64,000 bases of DNA from Ferrovibrio terrae (GTDB taxonomy: Bacteria; Pseudomonadota; Alphaproteobacteria; Ferrovibrionales; Ferrovibrionaceae), in the NCBI RefSeq assembly GCF_007197755.1, contig NZ_CP041636.1:2578001-2642000 (forward strand). Direction: 5' to 3'. The notes under the pieces are model-generated. The model was not told the origin of the DNA. It saw only the letters and a program-made list of their open reading frames with translations, and ran no database searches. Position 1 is the stretch's first letter; each line of letters starts with the position of its first letter. Both the position numbers and the translations under genes were made by a program. Shown piece after piece: positions 55,027-60,812 of this stretch.

Positions 55027-55077
55027 CTTGGGCTCCACGTCGGCGCCGTAAACCCGGCGGCCGACGTGGAGCCCAAG
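55027..55077 (-). terminator. Strong hairpin terminator after the Lys-rich small gene
   Basis: An 18-pair perfect stem (55027-55044 with 55060-55077) has a loop that pairs further (GCCG with CGGC). On the minus strand it is followed by GCGCTTTTA. It ends the transcript of the small Lys-rich gene and may also block read-through from cca. Confidence 0.75.
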
Positions 55078-55108: not shown

Positions 55109-55219
55109 TTACTTCTTGGCCTTCTTCTTGGCAGCCTTCTTCTTGGCCTTCGGGGCCTTCTTAGCCTTCACAGCCTTCTTCGCCACCTTCTTCTTAGCGG
55201 CCTTTTTCTTCGCAGCCAT
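55109..55219 (-). CDS. 36-residue Lys/Ala-rich histone-H1-like protein
   Basis: A very short gene below usual length limits. The product is 36 residues with 20 Lys and 12 Ala, arranged as KKKAAKKK-type repeats with one Pro near residue 23 and three Val, and no acidic residue. GGAGGAG lies seven bases before the ATG, a 5' hairpin lies upstream and an 18-pair terminator follows, so it looks like a genuine free-standing gene. The composition matches the tails of bacterial histone H1-like proteins and suggests binding to DNA or RNA. The basic extension of the MTA phosphorylase at 59754 is strikingly similar. Confidence 0.75.
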   Translation of the reverse strand: MAAKKKAAKKKVAKKAVKAKKAPKAKKKAAKKKAKK

Positions 55220-55243
55220 GAGTTTCTCCTCCATGGATTAGAG

Positions 55244-55259
55244 TGCGGTTTTCACCGCA
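55244..55259 (-). other. GAAA-tetraloop hairpin in the leader of the small basic gene
   Basis: On the minus strand TGCGGT-GAAA-ACCGCA forms a six-pair stem with a stable GNRA loop, 25 bases before the ATG and just upstream of the ribosome site. It could stabilise the mRNA. Confidence 0.5.
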
Positions 55260-55334
55260 ACGAAGTTTTCAGGAAAATGTTTCCCGAACACGTATATCTG
55301 TAGCACAACGCAACAGTATTAACCACTAAATCTT

Positions 55335-55365
55335 GCGCGCGCTTAAAAAATGGTTAAGCGCGCGC
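55335..55365 (-). terminator. Perfect palindrome after hemF, also a CtrA-type box
   Basis: GCGCGCGCTTAA (55335-55346) and TTAAGCGCGCGC (55354-55365) form a 12-pair stem around AAAATGG. It lies 125 bases past the hemF stop and 116 bases before the small basic gene start. Its core TTAA-N7-TTAA equals the CtrA consensus, and on the minus strand the first half reads TTAACCAT. It is either a terminator, a regulatory site, or both. The rest of the 270-base gap (55220-55489) shows nothing else I can name. Confidence 0.45.
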
Positions 55366-59753: not shown

Positions 59754-60812
59754 ATGGCCAAGGCGAAGAAGGCTGCGAAGAAGAGCGTCAAGAAGGCCGC
59801 TCGCAAGCCGGCCAAGCGCAAGCCGGCTGGCAAGCCGACGACCTCTGCGGTCGCTGTCGCCAGGGCGGCGGCCAGGTCGGTTTCCGGTCGTGCCAAGGCC
59901 ACTGCCGGTATCCCGAAGCCGCATATCGCCAGGGCCGGCGATGCCGTGCGCATCGGTGTGCTGGGCGGCAGCGGCATCTACGGCATGGCCGGGCTGAAGA
60001 ACACCAAATGGCGCAAGGTTTCCACGCCCTGGGGCGATCCCTCCGACGAGCTGCTGTTCGGCACATTGGACGGCGCCGAGCTGGTTTTTCTGCCGCGTCA
60101 CGGCCGTGGCCATGTGCATTCACCGTCGGAAGTGAACTACCGCGCCAATATCGATGCGCTGAAGCGCGTCGGCTGCCAGGACGTGATTTCGGTTTCTGCC
60201 TGTGGCTCGTTCAAGGAGCAGCTGGCGCCAGGAACCTTCGTGATCGTCGACCAGTTCATCGACCGCACCTTCATGCGGCAGAAGAGCTTCTTCAGCACCG
60301 GCATGGTGGCACATGTCTCCTGCGGCCATCCGGTCTGCAGCCGGCTCGGCGATGCGCTGGAAGCCGCCGCCAGGGAAGCCGGCATCATTGCGCAGCGCGG
60401 AGGCACATATCTCTGCATGGAAGGGCCGCAATTCTCCACCCAGGCCGAGAGCTTCCTGTACAAGAGCTGGGGCTGCGACGTGATCGGTATGACCAATGCG
60501 CCGGAAGCCAAGCTCGCCCGCGAGGCCGAACTTTGCTATGCCTCGGTTGCCATGGTTACGGATTACGACTGCTGGCATCCCGATCATGATCATGTCGATG
60601 TGGCGGCCGTGATTCGCGTGCTGCTCGGCAATGCCGAGAAAGGCCAGGCCTTGGTCGCCAAGGCGGTGCCGCATCTGAAGCATCGGCCCGGTCACTGCCC
60701 GCAAGGCTGTGACCGGGTGCTCGATACCGCACTGATCACCGCGCCGGAAAAGCGCGACCCGAAGGTGCTGAAGAAACTCGATGCGGTCGCTGGCCGTGTG
60801 TTGAAGGCTTAA
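59754..60812 (+). CDS. mtnP: S-methyl-5'-thioadenosine phosphorylase with basic N-terminal extension
   Basis: A 352-residue protein. Residues 1-64 are a Lys/Ala/Arg/Pro-rich segment (11 Lys and 2 Arg in the first 28), then the purine phosphorylase domain begins VRIGVLGGSGIYGMAGL. Phosphate-site residues are in FLPRHGRGHVHSPSEVNYRA near 104-123, and substrate-site GTYLCMEGPQFSTQAES is near 219-235. It cleaves methylthioadenosine to adenine and methylthioribose 1-phosphate. GAGAGGA ten bases before the ATG supports the long form; a GTG at 59946 would give the usual length. It lies 21 bases before apt, which reuses the adenine. Confidence 0.9.
   Translation: MAKAKKAAKKSVKKAARKPAKRKPAGKPTTSAVAVARAAARSVSGRAKATAGIPKPHIARAGDAVRIGVLGGSGIYGMAGLKNTKWRKVSTPWGDPSDELLFGTLDGAELVFLPRHGRGHVHSPSEVNYRANIDALKRVGCQDVISVSACGSFKEQLAPGTFVIVDQFIDRTFMRQKSFFSTGMVAHVSCGHPVCSRLGDALEAAAREAGIIAQRGGTYLCMEGPQFSTQAESFLYKSWGCDVIGMTNAPEAKLAREAELCYASVAMVTDYDCWHPDHDHVDVAAVIRVLLGNAEKGQALVAKAVPHLKHRPGHCPQGCDRVLDTALITAPEKRDPKVLKKLDAVAGRVLKA

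Follow-up and report, generated by a model that had tools for sequence, protein, structure and literature searches.

A conserved 36-residue Lys/Ala gene between cca and hemF of Ferrovibrio, resembling an H1-like tail that stands alone

The window analysed here, a 64,000-nucleotide stretch of the Ferrovibrio terrae genome (4.26 Mb, single contig), contains a very short frame between the convergent cca gene and hemF, which lies upstream on the same strand (both neighbours supported by Pfam). As its product would consist almost entirely of lysine and alanine, the locus raises the question of whether such a frame is a gene at all and, if so, what a lone Lys/Ala peptide might do. Running on the minus strand from 55219 to 55109, with its TAA stop at 55109-55111, the frame translates to MAAKKKAAKKKVAKKAVKAKKAPKAKKKAAKKKAKK, a 36-mer of 20 K, 12 A, 2 V, 1 P and 1 M with a net charge of about +19.5 and a mass of 3.9 kDa; sequence, composition and frame agree with what the initial annotation had described. 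At a K+A frequency of 0.17, the probability of finding at least 32 K/A in 35 residues is ~1e-21, and hence chance cannot yield this composition. The ribosome site claimed for the frame is also in place, a Shine-Dalgarno GGAGGAG at 55226-55232 (minus strand), 6 nt before the ATG at 55219 and near-invariant in the alignment of orthologues. An alternative in-frame ATG at 55234 (MEEKL-MAAK...) overlaps this Shine-Dalgarno and lacks a separate ribosome site, which makes 55219 the likelier start.

The behaviour of the frame in relatives bears most directly on whether it is a gene. Nine Ferrovibrio genomes, that of the window included, carry the micro-ORF in the cca-hemF interval (the other carriers are G001-G006, G008 and G009, the G004 copy being part-masked by N), with lengths of 31-44 aa. 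Two sister genera carry an orthologue as well, one of 25 aa (G010), where an extra gene lies between hemF and the micro-ORF, and one of 89-93 aa (G011) that is also tail-only. Short Lys/Ala frames beside hemF and cca, which the initial annotation had proposed to look for, were therefore found in eight further Ferrovibrio genomes and two sister genera, and frameshifts between close relatives, which it had named as evidence against a gene, were not seen; all length differences among the orthologues are multiples of three. Beside hemF of G012-G015 the micro-ORF is absent within the readable sequence beyond that gene, and the micro-gene is thus not universally needed; G007 and G016 (no hemF match) and G017 (sequence ends after hemF) fall outside this count. 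The hemF gene of G006 itself has an in-frame low-complexity insertion of ~100 residues, rich in Gln/Ala/Gly/His, near the N terminus of its 412-codon frame.

Codon changes in the informative pairs of orthologues are overwhelmingly synonymous, with synonymous to non-synonymous counts of 7:0 (P = 1.5e-5), 6:1 (P = 4.6e-4) and 8:1 (P = 1.6e-5), where ~20% synonymous changes would be expected. A sequence of this kind could also be made uniform by slippage within the repeats or by gene conversion; alone, these processes would not favour third positions. Both marks of a protein-coding micro-gene, a frame kept between species and an excess of synonymous changes, are accordingly present. Together with the fixed promoter spacing and the covarying stems described below, they indicate a real, selected gene, neither a chance frame nor a decayed tail, and we hold with high confidence that the frame from 55219 to 55109 is coding. 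The description of the locus as a free-standing gene with its own signals holds up in the relatives, in which synteny, promoter spacing, ribosome site and coding constraint are all conserved.

Upstream of the frame, alignment and spacing delineate a conserved promoter-like element, GCAAGATTTAGTGGTTAA ... TGCTACAGA, at 55297-55336 on the minus strand. It comprises GTGGTT-N15-TGCTA, a -35-like/extended -10-like pair at identical spacing in all 11 orthologous loci. A consensus scan for a sigma-70 site did not recognise this pair, and its identity as a promoter is therefore deduced from conservation. When contigs were scanned with the pattern from promoter to ribosome site, five cyanobacterial matches and one from Saprospiraceae were also returned, which we take as chance or unrelated. 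Just upstream of the promoter-like element, a TTAA-N7-TTAA motif with CtrA-like spacing lies within a GCGCGCTTAA...TTAAGCGCGC palindrome at 55343-55357; the motif is clean only in four genomes (G000, G001, G002 and G005).

Between promoter-like element and ribosome site, the leader forms two hairpins, hairpin 1 (TTCGGGAAA/TTTCCTGAA, 55268-55288) and hairpin 2 (TGCGGT-GAAA-ACCGCA, 55244-55259), both on the minus strand. Both re-form with different sequence in relatives through compensatory changes, as exemplified by the stems of hairpin 2 (UGCGGU/ACCGCA, GUGGUC/GACCAC, GCGGUUC/GAACCGC and ACGGC/GCCGU); these stems were tallied by hand, the automatic alignment being out of register with them, and the G011 leader showed no comparable fold. 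Of the single GAAA-tetraloop hairpin assigned to this leader, the hairpin is thus real, but the GAAA loop is restricted to the closest relatives, the other orthologues keeping the same stem with other loops, and hairpin 1 had been missed.

On the other side of the frame lies a 3' hairpin (55027-55077, minus strand) with an 18-pair stem, 55027-55044 pairing with 55060-55077, which is stable (MFE z = -6.7) and covarying: 93.9% of cells are paired across 11 genomes, double-sided changes occur at 10 of the 18 pairs, and the covariation score was reached by 0 of 500 shuffles. An intrinsic, Rho-independent terminator combines a GC stem with an immediate U-run, and here the stem is followed by just CGCTTTTAGG, a poor U-run (CGCUUUUAGG), with no U-run at all in several orthologues; a terminator scan also found none. 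The 18-pair element that had been called a terminator is therefore sound as a stem and unproven as a terminator; with so weak a U-tract here, and none in some orthologues, it may be a 3' stability element rather than a terminator. The mRNA would be short and well expressed, and its structured leader and 3' stem probably serve to stabilise and tune it.

Lys/Ala stretches of this kind are not confined to the micro-gene. In the same genome, N-terminal Lys/Ala tails were found on pyruvate phosphate dikinase (PPDK; locus L003), aconitase (L006) and a phosphorylase-superfamily enzyme (PF01048, MTAP-like by eye), and C-terminal tails on YbeY (L004), topoisomerase I (TopA; L005) and a PilZ-domain protein (L077). 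The phosphorylase-superfamily gene lies within the window, at 59754-60812 on the plus strand, and its N-terminal extension, MAKAKKAAKKSVKKAARKPAKRKPAGKP, is rich in Lys, Ala and Arg. This census, made by DNA and pattern searches, is incomplete and hence a lower bound. Among relatives, the tail recurs on aconitase in G006 and on PPDK in G013 and G016 (loci L026, L028 and L035). These tails represent the same Lys/Ala module as the 36-mer, but they are fused to folded domains and have no gene of their own.

Outside Ferrovibrio, we also observed that free-standing Lys/Ala frames recur in two further alphaproteobacterial families, which is new here. A ribosome site followed by MAAKKKA(x)KK was matched in 8 of 289 alphaproteobacterial genomes and, phylum-wide, in only 2 of 398 (the window's own and G083); the pattern is thus rare, and none was seen outside Alphaproteobacteria in that sample. 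In the family f67, a frame of 18-24 aa follows a ribonucleotide reductase gene, and an identical 18-mer, MAAKKKAAKKKAAKKKKQ, is present in 12 genomes with seven distinct DNA sequences, all six variable columns of which are third codon positions; a folded 3' element is predicted after several of these frames. At L128, L139 and L142, the predicted hairpin 3' of the 18-aa frame has changing stems (GGCCAAAG/CTTTGGCC, GGGCCGTA/TACGGTCC and GACCAGCGC/GCGCTGGTC) and adjoins a AAAGGGCGT/ACGCCTTT complementarity. In the family f5, the frames lie after gatB and span 21-96 aa. Frames of both families are like the Ferrovibrio gene in their MAAKKKA... start, a ribosome site in most cases and the lack of a partner domain, but unlike it in their unrelated loci and flanks and in their lengths. 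For the Ferrovibrio, f67 and f5 frames, sequence of such low complexity does not allow common descent to be distinguished from convergence. A protein of another kind, with K-T-A-K-R repeats over 76-87 aa, was seen at L070 and L071 (family f97), flanked, as judged by eye, by a malate-dehydrogenase-like frame on one side and a sucC-like frame on the other.

What could a peptide of this composition do? By analogy with known lysine-rich tails, its role is most likely to be binding of DNA/RNA or polyphosphate. As a whole explanation we favour, with somewhat better than even confidence, a monocistronic gene whose product, a polycationic peptide consisting of an H1-like tail alone, binds nucleic acid non-specifically. 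The 36-mer would be an extended or inducible helix. AlphaFold gives one helix over residues 2-35 (pLDDT 83.5, pTM 0.37), which is weak evidence, as it tends to return a single helix for such peptides. The peptide may bind DNA and/or RNA, and perhaps polyphosphate too, through charge and irrespective of sequence, acting like an isolated lysine-rich H1-like tail in compaction of the nucleoid or of RNPs, or in charge balance. More generally, the same Lys/Ala module serves both as a tail at one end of several enzymes of this genome and, in free-standing form, as micro-genes at unrelated loci of other Alphaproteobacteria. Since any polycation binds polyanions, composition cannot reveal the true partner.

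The main rival to nucleic-acid binding is polyphosphate or another polyanion store, such as granules, with the tailed enzymes and the free peptide sharing a polyanion-rich compartment. AlgP, a Lys/Ala protein of the H1-like kind, is found at polyphosphate granules, whose spacing depends on the AlgP tail (PMC9239181). The similar tails on PPDK, aconitase and the phosphorylase-superfamily enzyme of the same genome point the same way, but those on TopA and YbeY suit nucleic acid equally well, and we consider polyphosphate unlikely as the main partner. The covarying 5' and 3' structures, with the folded 3' elements predicted after f67 micro-ORFs too, raise a different alternative, namely that the RNA is the main product, either a structured small RNA with a secondary frame or a dual-function RNA. 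Protein-level constraint, with changes at third positions in both Ferrovibrio and f67, and conservation of the ribosome site and start argue against this, and a search of Rfam 15 gave no family at gathering score, with weak matches far below threshold; a known sRNA is thereby rejected. An RNA as main product is in our view improbable, even as the conserved structures are compatible with a role of the RNA itself.

Three other readings fare worse. The Lys/Ala composition, the orthologue of about 89 aa in the sister genus G011 and the very similar N-terminal tail of PPDK in the same genome (MAKKKAAKKVAKKAVKARKAA...) might suggest that a longer gene, H1-like or Lys/Ala-tailed, is decaying and has left this remnant, but frame, ribosome site and UTR structures have all been preserved across the genus and into sister genera and the longest orthologue is itself tail-only, so that we disfavour decay as highly improbable. 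A leader peptide or lysine-sensing attenuator would accord with the 20 Lys codons and the strong stem after them; the gene order in the window refutes it, there being no same-strand gene downstream and the next gene, cca, being convergent, and it retains hardly any credence. We give just as little to a membrane-active product of the antisense frame at 55116-55241 (plus strand; MAFFLAAFFLAF...). That frame is open across the same stretch, but it starts with TTG, has by eye no ribosome site in the preceding bases and loses its start in G009, which reads AAGAAGAAGTAATTCTTC around the sense stop; we have rejected it.

Alphaproteobacteria may harbour autonomous micro-proteins, overlooked as a class, that consist of an H1-like tail and nothing else, range from 18 to about 45 aa, are almost entirely Lys/Ala and have their own short structured mRNAs. 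These would be selected at lineage-specific loci as minimal binders of polyanions (nucleoid, ribosome or polyphosphate), the module being appended to metabolic and nucleic-acid enzymes as well; we advance this wider proposal tentatively, rating it a little short of even. Such micro-proteins would be missed because they fall below annotation limits and trypsin would cut them into fragments of no more than four residues (one to four, as computed for the 36-mer), a systematic blind spot in which Lys/Ala micro-genes are invisible to tryptic proteomics. A selected tail-only gene, with 18-residue look-alikes identical in 12 genomes, offers a minimal natural system for the function of a lone tail.

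How, then, does the 36-mer relate to known systems? It had no match among Pfam and NCBIfam profiles or in a PDB search, its own genome gave no PF07382 match, and in the open literature, mostly without subscription journals and hence a weak absence, we found no description or quoted sequence of such free-standing peptides. In bacteria, H1-like tails rich in lysine have been known as portions of larger proteins, and no lost globular domain was found for the Ferrovibrio gene. The HC2/histone H1-like nucleoproteins (PF07382; NF038053, NF038052) share with the 36-mer the Lys/Ala-rich low-complexity repeats that mark them, but their profiles span 194-201 positions against 36 aa. The frame of G011 gave sub-threshold matches to HC2 and the Burkholderia H1-like family (E 2.7e-5 and 3.2e-7; 24.8 bits with a cut-off of 40 and 30.8 bits with a cut-off of 80), and no tested protein of the locus reached the curated cut-offs of PF07382 and NF038053. 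The notion of an H1-like tail existing alone accordingly draws support from the composition and from the tail-only G011 orthologue with its matches below the cut-offs; we regard the 36-mer as probably acting in the manner of an H1-like tail, and do not class it as HC2.

DNA binding has been reported for the Lys/Ala tails of AlgP and PhaF of Pseudomonas and, in vitro, for KPAA-repeat peptides (PMC9239181). The 36-mer is like these C-terminal Lys/Ala(Pro) tails in its richness in lysine and alanine, but whereas theirs stand behind an N-terminal helical or phasin domain and carry KPAA repeats, the Ferrovibrio peptide has no other domain and a single proline, and is a tail alone.
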